This document shows, piece by piece, positions 2,793 through 42,717 of a DNA stretch of 64,000 nucleotides. The translations under genes and the position numbers were made by a program. The DNA comes from Planctomycetia bacterium (lineage in GTDB: Bacteria; Planctomycetota; UBA8108; UBA1146). The stretch is from contig JAAXJX010000058.1 of assembly GCA_012269595.1 (NCBI GenBank), positions 10,251 to 74,250 of the forward strand. The letters run 5' to 3'. Under the pieces are notes generated by a model. It did no database searches. It was given only the letters and a program-made list of their open reading frames with translations, and had not been told where the DNA came from. Numbering within the stretch: the stretch's first letter is position 1; each line of letters begins with the position of its first letter.

Positions 2793-4514
2793 ATGAAATC
2801 CGACATTCTCTTCAGCCCCGCTTCCCCCGAATCGGACAGTCTTTCAGCAGATGACACCCAGCCGATGCAGACCCCCCGCTTTGACCACATCGGCCAGTTT
2901 CTGGTCGAAGAGAAGATCGGTGAAGGCGGAATGGGTGTCGTCTACCGGGCCCATGATCCCTCCTTGCAGAGAACTGTCGCCATCAAGCGGGTCCATCCAC
3001 GACTGAAGGATCACCACGACATTCGCGACAAATTCCTCGCCGAAGCCAGAGCCATCGCTGCGGTCAATCATCCGAACATCGGACAGATCCACGCCATTCA
3101 CGATGAAGATGATCTTCCCTATCTGGTGATGGAGTTTCTTCCCGGTCCCAGCTTTGAGGAAGAGTTGAATGAGCGTGGCAAGTTGCCTATTGAAGAAGTT
3201 CTCAAGGTTGCCATCTCAGCGACGCGTGCTCTGGAAGAAGCACGAAATCAGGGAATCATTCACCGCGATATCAAACCTTCCAACCTGATCGTCGATGCAC
3301 TCGGCAACATCAAGTTGGTCGACTTCGGACTTGCCGGCTCCATCGAAGAGGATGCAACCGAGGGAAATGAGGTCGTTGGTACTCCCCAGTATTGCTCCCC
3401 TGAACAGGTTCAGGGACATGGCACCGATGAACGGTCCGACATCTACAGTTTGGGTGCAACTCTCTACCATCTTCTCACCGGTGAGCCTCCCTACACCCGC
3501 GACTCAAGAATGGATCTGTTGATCGCCCATGTGAATGCTCCGGTTCCCGACATCGTTGAGGCTCTGCCCACAGTCGATCCAGAGTTTGCTGAACTGATTC
3601 AGGCGATGCTCAACAAAGCTCCTGATCAGCGACCGCAGAACCACTCGGAAGTTTTGGCCAGACTTCAGGCGATCACTCAAAGGATCGACCCTGAACAGGC
3701 CCCTCCCCGATCGACGAGACTTCTCGCCTCTGCAGTGGTAGTTCTCATACTGGCTGTCATCGGCGGGTCAGTTCTGCCGGGTAATCTTCTGACTCCCTAC
3801 CGCCAGCAGTTGGCGAAGGTGGATGCTTCCTTTGGAGACCTGCTGACAGAGAAGGGCTCCGTGGACCAGCTCACCTTTGAGTTCAATAACGTCGAAACGG
3901 AGCGTTTCTTCCGCCCCGTCCCCGCTTCCGGCAACTCCGGTGCCAGAAATCAGATCAGGCCCAATATTCGCGAAGGCCAGCTTCGTTGGGCCAATGATCC
4001 CGAGGTGGTTCGCTTCCCTTACATGTCCAGACTCGATCGCTGGGAAGTCTCCGGATTGCGCATGCTCGGGAGTCCTGATCTGGAATTACAGGTCGCTGCA
4101 GATCCGGATCAGCCAGGCAATCGCTGGCGTATTGGACTCGCCGTCGGAAAGTCCGCTGATCCAACCATCGAAGTTCTCCAACATGGATCACCGGTACCTA
4201 TCGAAATCGAACAACTGTTACGCAAGGGTTTTCTTCGGGAAGGGATCGACCATCAGTTGATCCTGGAACGCCTGGAGTCCGATGATCCCGACCGGGATCG
4301 GTTTCGATTGCAGGTACAACCCCAGAACAGTGCAGATCCTCTCCTGCAAATGACTTTCCAGATTCCAGTAACAGCCATTCCTACAGGTGCTCCGGGGTTG
4401 AGGCTCGAAGGAGATCTCACCGGTTGGAATACCAAAGTGGACCGGGTGGTCATCGAGGGAGACCTGAACAGAAAACGCATCCTTCGCGATTGGCGGCTGG
4501 CAGGCACGCCATGA
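2793..4514 (+). CDS. Membrane-anchored Ser/Thr protein kinase (PknB/Hanks type)
   Basis: A 573-residue receptor-like protein kinase. The cytoplasmic catalytic domain spans about residues 33-290 and has all the main signatures: the Gly-rich loop GEGGMGVVY, AIKRVH with the ATP-binding Lys, the catalytic loop HRDIKPSNL, the DFGLAG Mg-binding motif, and PQYCSPEQ in the activation segment. A single hydrophobic helix (about 309-330) follows, then about 240 residues that would lie outside the inner membrane and match no domain I recognise. GGAGG at 2781-2785 sits seven bases before the ATG. The stop codon overlaps the start of the FHA-domain sigma54 activator in an ATGA arrangement, so kinase and activator are co-translated. 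This makes the FHA protein a likely phospho-partner, by inference. Confidence 0.93.
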   Translation: MKSDILFSPASPESDSLSADDTQPMQTPRFDHIGQFLVEEKIGEGGMGVVYRAHDPSLQRTVAIKRVHPRLKDHHDIRDKFLAEARAIAAVNHPNIGQIHAIHDEDDLPYLVMEFLPGPSFEEELNERGKLPIEEVLKVAISATRALEEARNQGIIHRDIKPSNLIVDALGNIKLVDFGLAGSIEEDATEGNEVVGTPQYCSPEQVQGHGTDERSDIYSLGATLYHLLTGEPPYTRDSRMDLLIAHVNAPVPDIVEALPTVDPEFAELIQAMLNKAPDQRPQNHSEVLARLQAITQRIDPEQAPPRSTRLLASAVVVLILAVIGGSVLPGNLLTPYRQQLAKVDASFGDLLTEKGSVDQLTFEFNNVETERFFRPVPASGNSGARNQIRPNIREGQLRWANDPEVVRFPYMSRLDRWEVSGLRMLGSPDLELQVAADPDQPGNRWRIGLAVGKSADPTIEVLQHGSPVPIEIEQLLRKGFLREGIDHQLILERLESDDPDRDRFRLQVQPQNSADPLLQMTFQIPVTAIPTGAPGLRLEGDLTGWNTKVDRVVIEGDLNRKRILRDWRLAGTP

Positions 4515-6352
4515 AAACCCGCATTCATGTCATCGCCCCCGACAAGAACTCCCTGCGTCACGACATCTCCAATGACAAGGCGAGAACAGAAGGAATCCTG
4601 ATTGGTAGAGATGAATCGGTGGATATCACTCTGGAGGATCCTGCAGCCAGTCGTATCCATGCGCGTTTGAAATTGACGGAAGCGGGCTGGCAAATTACGG
4701 ATCTCGACTCTTCCAATGGAACTTATGTCTCTGGCGACCCTGTCCGTGAGCAACTGTTGCACCCGGGCCAGCACATCGGTATCGGGGATACTGAAATCGT
4801 TGTGGAAACCCTCGTGCATACCGTCGAAGAATCTGCGAACCAGACCCAGATCCTTGACTCAAGATCTGCTGAACCCGATTCCTTCTCCGAAAAACAGATG
4901 CGGCGAATCCTCAAAACACTGGATCAGGCCGCTCCCCTGCTTGGACAGGGTTTCTCCGACGCCAACAGTCTCGACGAAGGCCTCCGCAAACTGGTCTCCG
5001 GGCTCGAGGCAGACCGGGGTGCGATCCTGATTCAAGAGGAAGATCAATGGTTATGTCGAACCGCGTGGTCGCGGATTGGGGTACCCCTTCAGGGATTCGT
5101 TCTCAGCCAAACGATTCTCAGTGAACTGTTGCGCAGTCGCAGGGCAGTGCTTTCCAAAGACACCAGCAGTGATCCCCGCTTCGAAGACCGCCGCAGTGTG
5201 ACAGGCGATGAAATTCGCAGTGTGATCGCAGCTCCCATCTTTATTGAGAAATCCCTGCGTGGAATTCTCTATCTCGACCGGATCGATGGTGAATCTCATC
5301 CCCTGGGCGAAGCTGAACTCTGGGCGAGCGGAACTGCTGCAGCCACGATGGGTGCAGGCCTTTCCCTCAATGCCGAACTCGACGAACTGCATCAGGAAAA
5401 AGTGGATCTGGTTCAGTCTGTCCTGGATACACACCCCATCATCGGTTCCTCCCCTGCCGTCGAAGAAGTGCGAAAGTTCATTCAAAAGGTCGCACCCACA
5501 TCCGGAACAGTCCTCATCATGGGCGAGACGGGAACCGGCAAGGAGTTGGTTGCCCGAGGCCTTCACTTTCAGGGAAATCGTGCTGCAGCGCCCTTCGTCA
5601 CCATCAACTGTGCAGCCATCCCGACCCATCTGGTCGAGAGTGAACTGTTCGGTCATGAGAAGGGTGCATTCACCGGGGCTGACAGTCGCAAAATCGGCAA
5701 ATTTGAAGCCGCAGATGGAGGGACGGTCTTTCTCGATGAAATCGGAGAACTCCCTGAATCGGCACAATCAAAAATGCTTCGCCTGTTGGAAACACGGTGT
5801 CTGGAAAGAGTCGGCAGCAACACATCCATCGAAGTCGATGTTCGATTGATCGCCGCCACTCACCGGGATCTCCAGGGTGAAGTGAACAGCGGCAACTTTC
5901 GTGAAGACCTGTACTTTCGACTTGCCGTCCTCGAAGTACGTGTACCTCCTCTACGGGACCGGAGTGGAGATGTGGCGCTCCTTGCCAACCACTTCCTTGA
6001 TCAGTTTTCCGACAAACAGAGACCACGAAAAACTCTTTCAGATGAAGCGCTCTCCTTGCTGGAAGGTCATTCTTTTCCCGGAAACGTCCGCGAACTGCGC
6101 AACCTGCTCGAGAGTGCAGCGATCCTTTCAGATGGAGCTCAAATCGAGGGTGAAGACTTGCGACTGTCACCCGATAAAAGTCGAAGCACCCCATCAACCG
6201 GGACCTGGAAACCGGTTCCTCTCAAGGATCTGGAACGTGAGCACATTCTCCGGGTTCTTGAATACGCTGGTGGGAACAAGAAGAAAGCCGCGCAGATTCT
6301 GGGGATCGAAAGATCAACACTGTACTCTCGACTGAAAAACATGACGGACTGA
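4511..6352 (+). CDS. FHA-GAF-AAA+-Fis sigma54-dependent transcriptional activator
   Basis: A 613-residue bacterial enhancer-binding protein. An N-terminal FHA domain (about 1-95, with GRDESVD and SRIHARL) would bind phosphothreonine. A GAF sensor (about 150-290) and a sigma54-interaction AAA+ domain follow, with Walker A GETGTGKE near residue 338, the GAFTGA loop at 385-390 that contacts sigma54, and Walker [10 protein letters not shown] Fis-type HTH ends the protein ([20 protein letters not shown]). The start is the ATG whose ATGA overlaps the kinase stop; an upstream in-frame ATG at 4424 lies inside the kinase gene and encodes unrelated sequence. With the FHA domain in place of a receiver, the upstream Ser/Thr kinase is the obvious candidate input. 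Sigma54-like promoters lie ahead of the nearby secretion operons. Confidence 0.94.
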
Positions 6353-35960: not shown

Positions 35961-36000
35961 AGTTGCCTATTTGGCAACTTACCCCTTGCCATTTTGGCAA
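35961..36000. promoter_or_regulatory. Tandem palindromic operator-like sites
   Basis: AGTTGCCTATTTGGCAACT (35961-35979) is a perfect seven-pair inverted repeat around five bases. A second copy of the core, TTGCC-N5-GGCAA with spacer ATTTT, lies at 35986-36000. Centres are 23 bp apart, close to two helical turns. This is typical of a pair of dimeric repressor sites. No T-run follows, arguing against a terminator. Confidence 0.6.
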
Positions 36001-36029
36001 CTCCGGGTAATCTCGTAAATGGACCTGGG

Positions 36030-36113: not shown

Positions 36114-37685
36114 ATGAATCAGCAATACGACGAATACGATGAAGAGTACGACGACGAGTACGAAGCACCGGCAAACACCAGTTGGTTGAACAACACTCCC
36201 TACTGGGCTATTTCCGCTGCTTTCCACGTCATCATTCTTTCGATTCTCGGCACGATCGTCATCCTCGAAGTCAAAGAGGAGAAGGAGCAGCGCAAGACCA
36301 TCGTCAAGAAAGAGGTCAAGCCGCCCAAGTATGATCCGACCAAGAAGAGGGATATCGAGCGCAAGCCCGAGATCCTCGAAAAGCAAAAGACTGATCCGAT
36401 CAAGATGCTCAAGCCCGACAAGATCAGCCGAACCCCCAAGGGAACCAGCAAGAACAACAAGACCAACAAGAATATCAAGAACCAGCTCAACGATGCCTTC
36501 GGCATGACCGGTGCTGGTGCGGGCGCCTACGGTAACCGCTTCGGTAAAGGTTCACTCTCCAGAGAAGGCGGCAGTGAGGCTACGGAAAGTGCCGTGCTTG
36601 CGGCCCTCTATTGGCTCAAGCGCCATCAGCACCCGGACGGTCACTGGTCGTCGAATGGTTTCCTCCGCCCCGATGGGTGCGAACAGGAACAGGGAGATGG
36701 ATTCGAAGGCTATGACGTCGGTGTCACCGCCCTCGCCATGCTCGCTTTCCTGGGCTTCGGACATACCCACGAAAGTGGTGAGTTCCCCGATTTCGTCATC
36801 GTCATGCGCAAGGCGATGGACTGGATGCTCAAGCAACAGGTCAAGAATGCGGATCCGAAACTCAATGGTCTCTACGGCATGCCGCAGGAAGACACGGACG
36901 AGTGGATCTACAACCATGCCATCGCCACCATGGCGATGAGCGAACTGTTGCTCATGTCCCAGGACAAGATCAAGCTTTCCAACTCGGTCGCCCGTGCCAC
37001 CAAATGGTGCCTGAACGCCCAGAACCCCGGTTACGGCTGGAAATACGACTACCAGGCGGGTCGCAACGATACCTCGGTCACCGGGTGGATGGTGCTCGCA
37101 CTGAAGACCGCCAAGGTCTGTGCCCAGTCACGCTACATCAAGGTCAAGACCAAAGACTTCAACCCCGCCTTTGAAGGTGCACTGAAGTGGTTTGAGTCCT
37201 GCACAGCCCGCTCCGGAATCTGCGGATACGAAAACCCGGGAGACGAGGGATCGAGACTTCAGGCCTCTTACCCGGAGCCTTACCCGTACTCCAAGGATCT
37301 CTCCTGCATGACTGCGGTGGGCGTGTTGTGTCGAATCTTCTCGGGAGAGAAAACCAACACCGATGCCATCAAGGCAGGAACCAATGTGCTGATGGATGAG
37401 ATCCCCGAGTGGCGCCCGCAGGAGGGCAAGCGCAAGTCGAAGATCAATCTGTACTACTGGTACTACGCGACCTACGCCATGTTCCAGATCGGTGGCAGCA
37501 AATGGCGCGAGTGGAATGAAGCGATGATCGATGCGCTGGTGAAGAACCAGCGGGTCGGAGGTTGTGAGGACGGCTCCTGGGACCCCATCGGTGAATGGGG
37601 TATTGCCGGAGGTCGGGTCTACAACACCGCGATTGGTGCGATGACTCTTGAGGTCTATTACCGATTCGCCCGTGCTTCAAACTGA
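36114..37685 (+). CDS. TonB-like N-terminus fused to prenyltransferase/squalene-oxidase-type repeats
   Basis: A 523-residue protein. The first 22 residues are almost entirely Asp, Glu, Tyr and Gln. A membrane helix (about 31-52, PYWAISAAFHVIILSILGTIVIL) and a Lys/Pro-rich segment (KEVKPPKYDPTKKRDIERKPE) follow, as in TonB-like energy-transducing anchors. Residues about 155-520 form an alpha/alpha toroid of prenyltransferase/squalene-oxidase repeats with ALYWLKRHQHPDGHWS and LVKNQRVGGCEDGSWDP. Such fusions are characteristic of Planctomycetota, and their function is not established. The DxDD motif of class II cyclases is not evident, so catalysis is doubtful. ATG 36114 is favoured over 36084 because the acidic N-terminus begins there. 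Upstream lie tandem palindromes. Confidence 0.82.
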   Translation: MNQQYDEYDEEYDDEYEAPANTSWLNNTPYWAISAAFHVIILSILGTIVILEVKEEKEQRKTIVKKEVKPPKYDPTKKRDIERKPEILEKQKTDPIKMLKPDKISRTPKGTSKNNKTNKNIKNQLNDAFGMTGAGAGAYGNRFGKGSLSREGGSEATESAVLAALYWLKRHQHPDGHWSSNGFLRPDGCEQEQGDGFEGYDVGVTALAMLAFLGFGHTHESGEFPDFVIVMRKAMDWMLKQQVKNADPKLNGLYGMPQEDTDEWIYNHAIATMAMSELLLMSQDKIKLSNSVARATKWCLNAQNPGYGWKYDYQAGRNDTSVTGWMVLALKTAKVCAQSRYIKVKTKDFNPAFEGALKWFESCTARSGICGYENPGDEGSRLQASYPEPYPYSKDLSCMTAVGVLCRIFSGEKTNTDAIKAGTNVLMDEIPEWRPQEGKRKSKINLYYWYYATYAMFQIGGSKWREWNEAMIDALVKNQRVGGCEDGSWDPIGEWGIAGGRVYNTAIGAMTLEVYYRFARASN

Positions 37686-37697
37686 TGGATCTGTGGG

Positions 37698-37919
37698 ATG
37701 TCTGATCAGCCGACACGATTCGAGATTCAACTGAACGGTGAAGTTCACCAGGTCGAGACCGACACCACGGTTCTCGATCTGGTGAACTCTCTTCCCATCG
37801 ACCCCGTGGCGGTGGCAGTGGAGAGAAACAAGAGAATAGTCCCCCGCTCCCTTCATGCGGAAACGACACTGGAAGCCGGGGACCAGATCGAAGTGGTGAC
37901 CATCGTCGGAGGAGGCTAG
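37698..37919 (+). CDS. thiS: Sulfur carrier protein ThiS
   Basis: A 73-residue ubiquitin-like protein ending in the Gly-Gly tail (VVTIVGGG) that is adenylated and thiocarboxylated to deliver sulfur for the thiazole half of thiamine. The family elements are [35 protein letters not shown] and [16 protein letters not shown]. One extra Gly follows the usual GG. It begins 12 bases after the PSC-repeat gene and ends two bases before thiG. The other thiamine genes (thiF, thiH or thiO, thiC) are not in the window, and no TPP riboswitch is visible. Confidence 0.93.
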
Positions 37920-37921
37920 AC

Positions 37922-38722
37922 ATGGGTTCCAGCGAAACAGTAACCGGAAACACTCCCACCCCCCTCACTCTGGGTGATCGCACCTTTCGATCGCGTCTTT
38001 TCGTCGGCACCGGCAAATACAGCGATGCCGAAACGATGAATGCCGCATTGGAAGCATCCGGTTGCGAAGTCGTCACCGTGGCCATCCGTCGCGTCGACCT
38101 CAACAGTGGCGACAACCTGCTTTCACAACTGGACCGGGAGAAGTACTTCCTGCTGCCCAATACCGCCGGCTGTTTCAATGCAGAGGATGCGGTTCGCGTG
38201 TGCCAGCTTTCCCGTGAACTCGGTCTCGGAGACTGGGTCAAACTGGAAGTACTCGGCGATCGCAAAACCCTGTTGCCCGATCCGGTCGGCACCCTTGAAG
38301 CGTGTCGCGAGTTGGTCGATGACGGCTTCAAGGTGCTGGTCTACAGCAGTGATGATCCGGTTCTCGCCCTGCGTCTGCAGGATGCGGGAGCCACTTCCGT
38401 AATGCCCGCAGGCTCCCCGATTGGCAGTGGCCAGGGGATTCTCAATTCCAACAACCTCGCGATCATCCTCGAGCAACTCGAAGTTCCAGTGATCATCGAT
38501 GCGGGAGTCGGCACTGCCAGTGACGTGACCATCGCCATGGAGTTGGGTGCCGAAGGGGTGCTTCTCAATACGGGAATCGCCGGAGCAAAAGATCCGGTCG
38601 CCATGGCCCACGCCATGCGCCATGCTCTCGACGCCGGCTGGTTTGCCGCCCGGGCAGGTCGCATTCCCCGCCGTCGCTACGCCCAGGCATCCAGTCCCAC
38701 TGAGGGAGTCCTCGGCGAATGA
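37922..38722 (+). CDS. thiG: Thiazole synthase ThiG
   Basis: A 266-residue TIM-barrel enzyme that builds the thiamine thiazole from deoxyxylulose phosphate, dehydroglycine and ThiS-thiocarboxylate. Motifs include [25 protein letters not shown], the Schiff-base Lys in [38 protein letters not shown] and [31 protein letters not shown]. Length and order are standard. It is paired with thiS, and its end overlaps the CPBP protease gene by four bases. Confidence 0.96.
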
Positions 38723-39645
38723 TGCCAAAGGGAGCCCTCGATCAGGAGCGCGCGGAACCGGGAGCCCCCTGGGCCGGGTCTCAGGTGCTTCTCTTCTTCA
38801 GTCTCTTTTTCCTGATTCAAGTTCTTGCAGCCCAGATGGCACTTTCTCCGACCGATACTGTCGAGGGCGAGCCCCCTGTCCTTACTGAAGGAACCGGACT
38901 CGATTCGTCCGACCTGAACACAGCCGACCTGAACACAGCCGACCTGAACACAGCCGACCCGAATCCCACCGATTCAGTCCCCGAGGAGAACTCACCGGAA
39001 TCTGCGGCCCCTGTCCTGACCGCAGAGCAGGCACGCCCCCTTTTTCTCACTCTGGCGCTGGGCAATCTGGTCCTGATTCTTCTGATCCTGATTTATTCCA
39101 GGCTTTGGCAGAAGCACCGTCCCGAAACCCCCTCCCTGCTCCTCGGCAGGAATGGGACCATCTTCGGTTGCCTGAAATACGGGGTCCTGGCATGTCTGGC
39201 ATGGATCCCCGTTCATCTTTCGATCGCATTGTTGTGGGGTGGATTGTTGCAGGCTCTCGGTCATGAAATGGTTCCGCAGCAGGCGGTTTCCCTGTTTCTG
39301 AATGCTCTTCAAAACGACGAATCCCTGCTGAAGTTTCTGATCATGGTGAATGTGGTCGTCATGGCTCCATGGGTGGAAGAATTGCTCTTCCGTGGATTGC
39401 TCTTTCGTTGGCTCCTGGGTTACCGATCGGTGTTGGCTTCCGCCATCCTCTCCGGAGTGTTCTTTGGAGTCATCCATGATGCCCTGACCAGCATCGTGCC
39501 CATCGCCTGCCTCGGAGTCGCTCTGGCCTGGCTCTATCACCGTACCGGCAGCTTGCTGACTTCCATCGTTTTTCACACGGTTTTCAACGCCATCATGACG
39601 ATCCTGATGTTGTTTGGTTCAAAAATGATGGGGGTCGCTGAATGA
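38719..39645 (+). CDS. CPBP-family intramembrane metalloprotease
   Basis: A 308-residue membrane protein with the CAAX-protease/bacteriocin-processing (CPBP, ABI) domain in the C-terminal half: [15 protein letters not shown] holds the EExxxR motif, FFGVIHDAL the FxxxH motif, and [13 protein letters not shown] the HxxxN motif. At least five hydrophobic helices are visible. Between the first helix and the second lies a hydrophilic segment with DLNTA repeated three times and a decayed fourth copy. The start overlaps thiG (ATGA) and the end overlaps the regulator gene (ATGA), so all are coupled. Substrates of such proteases in this phylum are unknown. Confidence 0.85.
38911..38970 (+). repeat. 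15-base tandem repeat inside the CPBP protease gene
   Basis: GACCTGAACACAGCC occurs three times in perfect tandem (38911-38925, 38926-38940, 38941-38955), followed by a decayed fourth unit. It encodes DLNTA repeats. The period is a multiple of three, so copy changes would keep the frame. Confidence 0.85.
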
Positions 39646-40607
39646 ACAAGATCGGCGATGTCATCAAAAAACTGCGTGAGGAATCGGGAGTCACCGCCAA
39701 GGATCTCGCCCAGAAGATCGGTCTTTCCGCTTCCCAAATGAGTCGCCTGGAGAGTGGACAGAGGCGGATCAACAGTGAGGTACTGACTCGCATCGCCAAG
39801 GCTCTGGGAGTCGCTCCTTCACGCTTGATCGACGACTCCTCTGGGACTGATATCCGATCCCTTGCCCAATCCGCCGCAGCTCCCTTCAGGGCCTCCATCG
39901 GAAAAACGATTCGATCGGCCCGACGTCAAAAGCATTTGACCGTGGAAGATCTCGCCCGCAAAACCGGCGTTTCAAGGGCCTATGCCATTTCGGTGGAAGA
40001 GGGCCGTAGAAGTGGTCTTGAATCGGACTTCATTCGCAAGGCGTGCCGCGTCTTGGGTCTCGCTCCCCTCGATCTGATTACGCTCGCAGAAGAGAAGCTG
40101 GATTCCATCGACCTCACCCAGGACATGAAATTATCCACCACTACTGCCCCCGATGACCTTGGCAATTCAGGTATCCCACTAATTCAGGATGAGGAACATC
40201 CCTATCCCGTCAGTTTTGATTCCAGAAATTTTCCAGAAGGAATCATCGAAGATTGGCTACAAATCCCCGGTGTGGATTCTTCCACAAGTTTTGCACTGCG
40301 TGTCTCCGGGGATGCGATGACGTCCAACAGCGCACCCTCCTTTAAAAGTGGCGATATCGTCGTATTCAGTACAAATATAAATATTTCCAATGGTGATTTC
40401 GCTTTTGTGCGCCTTTCCAAACGCTTTGAATCCAGTGTGGAAAAGTCAGAAATCAGGACAGTCTTCTGTCAATACTTTTGTGATTCTTCAGAACATCTTC
40501 GCCTGCACTTCTTGCGTTCTGAGTTGCCTCCCCTCATACTCCCTGCCGACCATGTTGGGGAAGCATGGGTCATGACTCACCACCTGAGCACCTTCGGACC
40601 CATTTAG
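39642..40607 (+). CDS. Regulator with two XRE helix-turn-helix domains and an S24-like C-terminus
   Basis: A 321-residue protein. HTH 1 (about residues 8-60: IKKLREESGVTAKDLAQKIGLSASQMSRLESGQR) and HTH 2 (about 88-140: IRSARRQKHLTVEDLARKTGVSRAYAISVEEGRR) are both well-formed XRE domains. Residues about 195-310 resemble the LexA/CI peptidase S24 fold (FALRVSGDAMTSNSAPSFKSGDIVVFS). The position of the catalytic Ser in the usual SGxSM is Ala (SGDAM), so autocleavage is unlikely and the domain may act in dimerisation or ligand sensing. The last third is AT-richer than the neighbours. It overlaps the protease gene (ATGA), as in a protease-regulator pair. Confidence 0.82.
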   Translation: MNKIGDVIKKLREESGVTAKDLAQKIGLSASQMSRLESGQRRINSEVLTRIAKALGVAPSRLIDDSSGTDIRSLAQSAAAPFRASIGKTIRSARRQKHLTVEDLARKTGVSRAYAISVEEGRRSGLESDFIRKACRVLGLAPLDLITLAEEKLDSIDLTQDMKLSTTTAPDDLGNSGIPLIQDEEHPYPVSFDSRNFPEGIIEDWLQIPGVDSSTSFALRVSGDAMTSNSAPSFKSGDIVVFSTNINISNGDFAFVRLSKRFESSVEKSEIRTVFCQYFCDSSEHLRLHFLRSELPPLILPADHVGEAWVMTHHLSTFGPI

Positions 40608-41823: not shown

Positions 41824-42717
41824 ATGCCCAGCAGCCTCTGCAGAGTCGCAAATGCCCTTCTTTGGGCTTTCCCTCTCTTCTTTCTCGGTTGTCAGGGAAT
41901 CCCACTGAAGTCCTCCCCCGATACTGCAGTCCTGCAGCAGAGAATTGAGGAGCGGATTGCCGGATTCGAAGGTGTGGTCGGAGTCCACTACCGACATTTG
42001 GAAAGTGGAAGTGAGATCAGCATCCGGGCGGATGAAACCTTTCCCACCGCCAGCCTGATCAAGATCCCCATTCTCTTCGCACTAATGGAGAAAATCTCGG
42101 CCGGTGAACTCGACTGGTATGGAAAACTGACCTATGAGATCTCCCGGAGATATGCCGGAGAAGATCTCCTCGCTTCTTTCCGCGATGGGGAAAAGATCAC
42201 TCTCGCCAAGCTTGTCGATTTGATGATCCGCTACAGCGACAACACCGCTTCACTCTGGTGTCAGGAACTCGCGGGTACCGGAACAGTCATCAATGATTGG
42301 CTTCAATCTCATGGATATGAAAAAACGCGGGTCAATTCCCGAACACCTGGCCGGGAAAAAGATCGGGAGGATTGGGGTTGGGGTCAGACCACCCCCAAAG
42401 AAATGACCCGCATGATGGAGAGTGTTCATCAGCGGAAGCTGTTTGGATCGCCGTGGGATGAATTGATGCTGAAGGTGATGAACAGCAGTTATTGGCGGGA
42501 CGAGATGCTTTCGGCGTTTCCACCCGATGTGACCGTTTACTCGAAGCAGGGTGCCGTCAACCAGAGTCGTTCGGAAGTGATCGTCGCCCTGTCACCGACA
42601 GGACCCTTTTCACTGTGCGTCATCACCAAAGAGCAAACGGACACTTCATGGGGTGAGGACAATGCAGGGTTTGTACTGTTGCGCGACCTCGCCAAAATCT
42701 GTCATGAGGCGCGATAA
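41824..42717 (+). CDS. Class A beta-lactamase-related serine hydrolase lipoprotein
   Basis: A 297-residue predicted lipoprotein (lipobox LGC after LWAFPLFF) with a penicilloyl-serine transferase fold. The SxxK motif is TASLIKIPI, the SDN loop is RYSDNTAS, and the family TTP motif appears as GQTTPKEM. The KTG box reads SKQGAVNQSRSE, i.e. KQG. The Glu that activates water in true class A enzymes (ExxLN) is not clear in the omega region. It may be a beta-lactamase, a D,D-peptidase-like enzyme or a non-lactamase serine hydrolase. GGAAGGAAG at about 41810-41818 precedes the ATG. Confidence 0.8.
   Translation: MPSSLCRVANALLWAFPLFFLGCQGIPLKSSPDTAVLQQRIEERIAGFEGVVGVHYRHLESGSEISIRADETFPTASLIKIPILFALMEKISAGELDWYGKLTYEISRRYAGEDLLASFRDGEKITLAKLVDLMIRYSDNTASLWCQELAGTGTVINDWLQSHGYEKTRVNSRTPGREKDREDWGWGQTTPKEMTRMMESVHQRKLFGSPWDELMLKVMNSSYWRDEMLSAFPPDVTVYSKQGAVNQSRSEVIVALSPTGPFSLCVITKEQTDTSWGEDNAGFVLLRDLAKICHEAR

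Follow-up and report, generated by a model that had tools for sequence, protein, structure and literature searches.

The tandem palindrome between hemF and the gene of a PSC-repeat protein is most likely an autoregulated operator in the promoter of the PSC operon, where it is likely bound by the XRE-S24 protein encoded by the last gene of the operon and probably serves repression. This reading was derived from sequence comparisons of the window, i.e. the whole analysed stretch of 64,000 nucleotides, which belongs to the 2.8 Mb genome of a bacterium described as uncultured and marine. The original prediction had proposed an operator at this position, with a spacing that would allow two dimers to bind cooperatively. 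The tandem site conserved before the orthologous PSC gene supports this proposal, and a candidate regulator can now be put forward. The present analysis adds that the second copy probably lies over the −35 box, that the PSC operon and not hemF is the probable target, and that the regulator is probably the protein encoded at 39642–40607.

Sequence and conservation of the tandem palindrome

Both copies are contained in the 199-bp gap that separates the hemF stop (35914) from the PSC-repeat gene, whose ATG is at 36114, in agreement with the predicted location between hemF and the PSC-repeat/thiamine genes. Copy 1, the upstream copy, is an exact TTGCC-N5-GGCAA (TTGCCTATTTGGCAA, 35963–35977). It is followed by an 8-bp spacer (35978–35985) and by copy 2 (TTGCCATTTTGGCAA, 35986–36000), for which many relatives carry GACAA; none of the three elements is assigned to a strand. 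The two exact copies were recovered as predicted, with starts exactly 23 bp apart, a distance of about 2.2 helical turns that matches the claimed two turns only approximately. The 7+5+7 palindrome AGTTGCC-TATTT-GGCAACT (35961–35979) is present in the window as well, but its outer AG/CT pairs are lost in relatives, and the conserved unit is 5+5+5. By chance, 0.07 occurrences of TTGCC-N5-GGCAA were expected in the window, and two copies were obtained in none of 100 shuffles. The whole genome contains eight exact sites, compared to two for a reversed-pattern control, and a single double site. The six exact sites outside the pair are all located within long open frames, so that the search for further copies in this genome, suggested along with the prediction, yielded only intragenic single sites.

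A homologue of the PSC gene was found in 58 of the 59 relatives searched; most of the close relatives with a name are bins of uncultured Planctomycetota, e.g. MCMED-G47, TMED53 and UBA1146. All 14 same-family upstream regions having a clear tandem site contain two TTG-N9-CAA elements separated by exactly 8 bp, a count in which many genomes are incomplete bins and members of one family are not independent. Among eight divergent same-family representatives, half-site identity was 100% in copy 1 and 92% in copy 2, next to 59–66% in the palindrome centres, 41% in the spacer, 26% over 60 bp upstream and 31% over 40 bp downstream. The spacer is variable in sequence and fixed in length, which preserves the 23-bp register. 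Conserved copies at a conserved spacing have the pattern of a classical phylogenetic footprint. The expected conservation upstream of orthologues was observed as the tandem site in same-family genomes and as related dyads in the same promoter of distant families.

In genus g5 (G010 and G012), the site reads TTGCGATTTCGGCAA and is accompanied by a degenerate copy 24 bp upstream. With up to three mismatches allowed, a search for the double site gave a single perfect instance in each same-family genome other than those of g5, which had none, and G005, which had two. Near-matches to the double site in G053 and G038 do not have the appearance of promoters of this kind. The one in G053 (L096, near 6110–6310) is a short, seemingly unrelated tandem array of TTTTGnCAAAAnTTGCATTG-like units, resembling TTTTGnCAAAA.

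Layout of the probable promoter

The left half of copy 2 forms a probable −35 box (TTGCCA, 35986–35991, plus strand), and a probable −10 box (TAATCT, 36008–36013, plus strand) follows downstream, which makes TTGCCA-16-TAATCT the promoter candidate of the window. A simple sigma-70 scan called no promoter at the tandem site; the assignment therefore rests on the comparison of relatives. In all 14 same-family regions, a TAnnnT hexamer is situated 16–17 bp from the TTGCCA of copy 2, with the variants TAATCT, TATTCT, TATTAT, TATATT, TATCCT and TACCCT. Distant families exhibit TTGACA or TTGTCA at the −35 position together with near-consensus −10 boxes. The right half of their dyad falls within the −35/−10 spacer, as in TTGACAATTTCTCAATTCCTGCCTAGAAT of G047 and TTGTCAAAATCTCAAGTTTGGTGTATAAT of G036, and a second dyad lies further upstream, at 23 bp in G047 and at 32–44 or about 50 bp in several further genomes. 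A sigma-54 promoter was rejected upon reading the sequence, which lacks the GG-N10-GC spacing.

As copy 2 overlaps the −35 box, a bound protein would compete with RNA polymerase. It is less likely, yet worth weighing, that the regulator binds and activates transcription by touching RNA polymerase beside the −35 box in a class-II-type arrangement. The weak −35 and −10 boxes of the same-family promoters (TTGCCA, TAATCT) and the position of copy 1 upstream of the −35 box would suit an activator. However, the −35 box itself lies within copy 2, a layout which fits repression best, and the site is placed between −35 and −10 in the regulator promoters of G036 and f5. Moreover, the distant PSC promoters are near consensus and would need no activator.

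The operon and its putative regulator

The site heads the operon PSC-thiS-thiG-CPBP-regulator and not hemF. The presumed target gene (36114–37685) encodes a membrane-anchored PSC protein with an S34-x3-H38 helix and a squalene-cyclase-like toroid, which matched the squalene cyclase family weakly, below the cut-off. It is followed, likewise on the plus strand, by thiS (37698–37919, PF02597), thiG (37922–38722, PF05690), the gene of a CPBP (Rce1-like) membrane protease (38719–39645, PF02517), which overlaps thiG by 4 bp, and the gene of the proposed cognate regulator (39642–40607), which overlaps the CPBP gene by 4 bp. The order hemF-PSC-thiS-thiG-CPBP-regulator is conserved across the family. 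Downstream of the regulator, at 41824–42717, a beta-lactamase-family gene (PF13354) with a lipoprotein-like start was observed.

The regulator contains two Cro/CI HTH domains, HTH_3 and HTH_31 being matched twice and far above the cut-off, and an S24-like pseudo-protease domain (PF00717, 29.9 bits, cut-off 23.3) that aligns with lambda CI. Its predicted structure had the lambda repressor as best Foldseek match (probability 1.00), and LexA was also matched. The catalytic Lys position is occupied by Cys or Arg in all aligned regulator sequences and the catalytic Ser position by Ala in most, with Ser retained in some. The Ser-Lys dyad of the self-cleaving LexA/CI repressors was accordingly not found in the aligned sequences, which renders a relief by LexA-style self-cleavage unlikely; an SOS/LexA operator was rejected on the same grounds. 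The protein thus shares with lambda CI/LexA-type repressors the Cro/CI HTH, the S24-like C-terminal domain, palindromic sites over promoter elements and probably autoregulation, but differs from them by two HTH domains per chain, by the substituted catalytic residues and by an association with a chromosomal envelope-gene operon and not with genes of a phage or of the SOS response. Neither this regulator nor PSC-repeat proteins of Planctomycetes were found described in the literature searched.

In a set of 294 planctomycete genomes, those with a full-length regulator were nearly the same as those with a close PSC orthologue. In f4/f5 (G022, G023, G024 and G027), the regulator gene still adjoins a PSC gene, in convergent orientation. 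The regulator genes of f23/f44 genomes (L147, L148–L152) are not located behind a PSC operon and adjoin envelope-precursor genes, with an lpxA-like gene in L147 and, judged by eye, murD-like sequences in L148, L149, L151 and L152.

From 13 distinct same-family sites, a matrix was derived and used to scan the 300 bp before PSC genes in other genomes, with dinucleotide shuffles for comparison; the p-values are per region and uncorrected, with 0.002 as the floor. Sites at p 0.002–0.016 were detected upstream of PSC genes in 16 other genomes (G010, G012, G024, G036, G039, G045, G047, G066, G070, G090, G140, G155, G169, G183, G196 and G208). The regulator was present in 15 of them, the exception being G155, an 86% complete bin in which sites were present and the regulator was not found. 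PSC paralogues in G036, G039, G047, G066, G140 and G155 had sites as well. In G018, G023 and G027, the regulator is present and the PSC site is weak (p 0.02–0.08); altogether, the PSC promoters of f5 and G018 have weak or no sites despite the regulator. No site was detected for the PSC homologues of G019, G020, G026 and G108, genomes without a strong regulator match, for those tested in G022, G025 and G028 (55% complete), or for several more distant homologues. The regulator of G022 adjoins another PSC copy, which is cut by the contig end.

The motif was also found in several regulator promoters (p 0.002–0.010). The promoter of the G036 regulator has TTGCTATATTGGCAA between −35 and −10, and those of G022, G023 and G027 have TTGCGTTTTTGGTAA between TTGCAA and TAAGAT, although the best-scoring match in G022 is a different one. 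Upstream of the regulator, G039 exhibits TTGCGCTTTTGGCAA at −224 and G066 TTGCCAAATTGGGTA. The f23 regulators have no site in their own upstream regions.

The linkage and co-occurrence with PSC genes, the dyads in distant PSC and regulator promoters and the targets of the gene-blind search described below all point to the regulator as the binding protein. The linkage could have another cause, and the tandem operator might belong to a different, unlinked regulator with the XRE-S24 gene as a mere passenger of the operon. The motif in G155, where no regulator was detected, and the weak PSC sites of the regulator-bearing f5 and G018 would agree with this. We consider it rather improbable, since the linkage of regulator and PSC genes outlives rearrangement, both co-occur phylum-wide and the motif is present in several regulator promoters.

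If the palindromes are bound by the protein encoded at 39642–40607, its placement on copy 2 would mask the −35 box and keep RNA polymerase away. Binding would be strengthened by copy 1, which lies 23 bp further upstream and would accommodate either another dimer or, from each subunit, the second HTH; the layout is compatible with two dimers on two palindromes as well as with a single dimer using four HTH domains. Since the regulator gene is part of the operon under its control, the level of the regulator would be self-limiting. Repression would more likely be released by a ligand or a partner protein than by self-cleavage.

An RNA hairpin, acting as hemF terminator or leader structure, is very improbable. 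The strand of this genome folds unusually well (z −6.5), but in relatives the outer-stem pairing declines from 9/9 to 5–7/9 and the flanking pairs from 4/4 to 1/4. Furthermore, the predicted absence of a T-run was confirmed, no terminator-like site exists at this position on the plus strand, and, with the probable −10 box downstream of the repeats, the transcript of the promoter itself would not contain them. Rfam gave no match above chance and nothing near the gathering score. That the tandem palindromes arose by chance, as the intragenic position of the other exact single sites might suggest, is dismissed on the sequence evidence, as every comparable same-family genome retains both copies at their spacing and the motif is also recovered in distant families.

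Possible further targets of the motif

The pattern TTGACA-N4-CKCAA, chosen after the PSC promoters had been seen, was searched without regard to genes in 12 genomes. In G047 every match was a PSC promoter, as were two of the three in G024. Ten selected matches, none of them a known PSC promoter, were examined. Four had a −10-like box (G039 C97, G039 C128, G066 C153 and G036 C403), three of these with a second dyad nearby, and all four precede genes whose products start with the N-terminal module of the PSC protein, in which a conserved linker follows an S-x3-H membrane helix (A-x3-H in G066). Three of the encoded proteins continue into vWF_A, VWA and YfbK_C domains, while the frame in G036 meets the contig end. 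The vWA/YfbK proteins combining this module with an operator are located at L249:1298–3394, L250:485–2455 and L252:722–2659. The gene of a HEAT-repeat protein in G039 C6 (L251:450–2807), preceded by a double site and a well-formed −10 box, is a possible regulon member. The remaining five of the ten matches were chance-like. As the DNA motif recovers proteins that are alike in their N-terminal module only, the search speaks for a genuine control element of this module family.

The second perfect tandem operator of G005 (L091:3384–3421) has the same promoter layout and precedes the gene of a TonB-dependent receptor (3457–5607). The receptor of G005 and its sister G002 resembles heme and siderophore receptors. 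The operator is partial in G002 and its half-sites are eroded in G001, G004 and G006; with this limitation to G005 and, as a partial site, G002, the receptor was rejected as a general target. Its operator is a hint at a link to nutrient uptake.

The PSC protein as a putative envelope transducer

The S-x3-H motif was present in the N-terminal membrane helix of 12 of 13 PSC sequences, and the His in all 13. In the model of the PSC protein, a helix at residues 30–58 was predicted with moderate confidence, followed by a low-confidence linker and the squalene-cyclase-like toroid. In TonB and TolA, the SHLS motif contacts ExbB/TolQ through its Ser and His (PMC12215075). The PSC protein resembles TonB and TolA in having these residues in an N-terminal membrane helix, but differs in its C-terminal domain, for which Pfam gave no TonB match and which is a toroid instead. 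The 26 genomes tested all contained ExbD-family genes, none of which adjoined a PSC gene. A motor-type cluster on contig C56 of the same genome as the window (L288:3103–11703), comprising two ExbD-family genes, a TolQ-like gene and genes of large envelope proteins, resembles the PVC motor clusters of PMC12204202 and has no operator. A motor operon within the regulon was rejected, as seven ExbD-bearing clusters scanned had no site except for one weak intragenic match.

In 2025, vWA/YfbK proteins of unknown function with an SHLS helix were proposed as motor-driven force transducers, and Planctomycetes are among the phyla named for them (PMC12204202). Several genes recovered with the operator encode such vWA/YfbK proteins with an S-x3-H or A-x3-H helix. 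In contrast to that study, which reported no regulator and did not mention a PSC-toroid end domain, a candidate regulator is proposed here, and the present genes are not adjacent to motor genes. A role of the PSC protein as motor-coupled envelope transducer is a lead from this analogy, not a demonstration. Phylum-wide, the products of genes under such sites are predicted to be anchored in the inner membrane and to combine an S-x3-H helix of the TonB/TolA type with an envelope domain that is either PSC or vWA. More tentatively, and as a reading which we find plausible without favouring it, these elements may compose a planctomycete system across the phylum, in which a two-HTH, non-cleavable lambda-repressor-like protein acts on tandem TTG(A/C)C-N5-G(G/T)CAA-type operators and controls motor-coupled transducers with a shared N-terminal module and interchangeable PSC or vWA ends.

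In uncultured Planctomycetota, known pairs of operator and regulator are few; the present one is predicted from sequence and recurs in several families. The motif alone points to a protein family that comprises vWA proteins like those of PMC12204202 plus a version with a PSC toroid. If the phylum-wide reading holds, proteins of the PSC type would represent force transducers of a class not described before. The regulator, together with its inducer, would offer direct access to the timing and the function of such systems.
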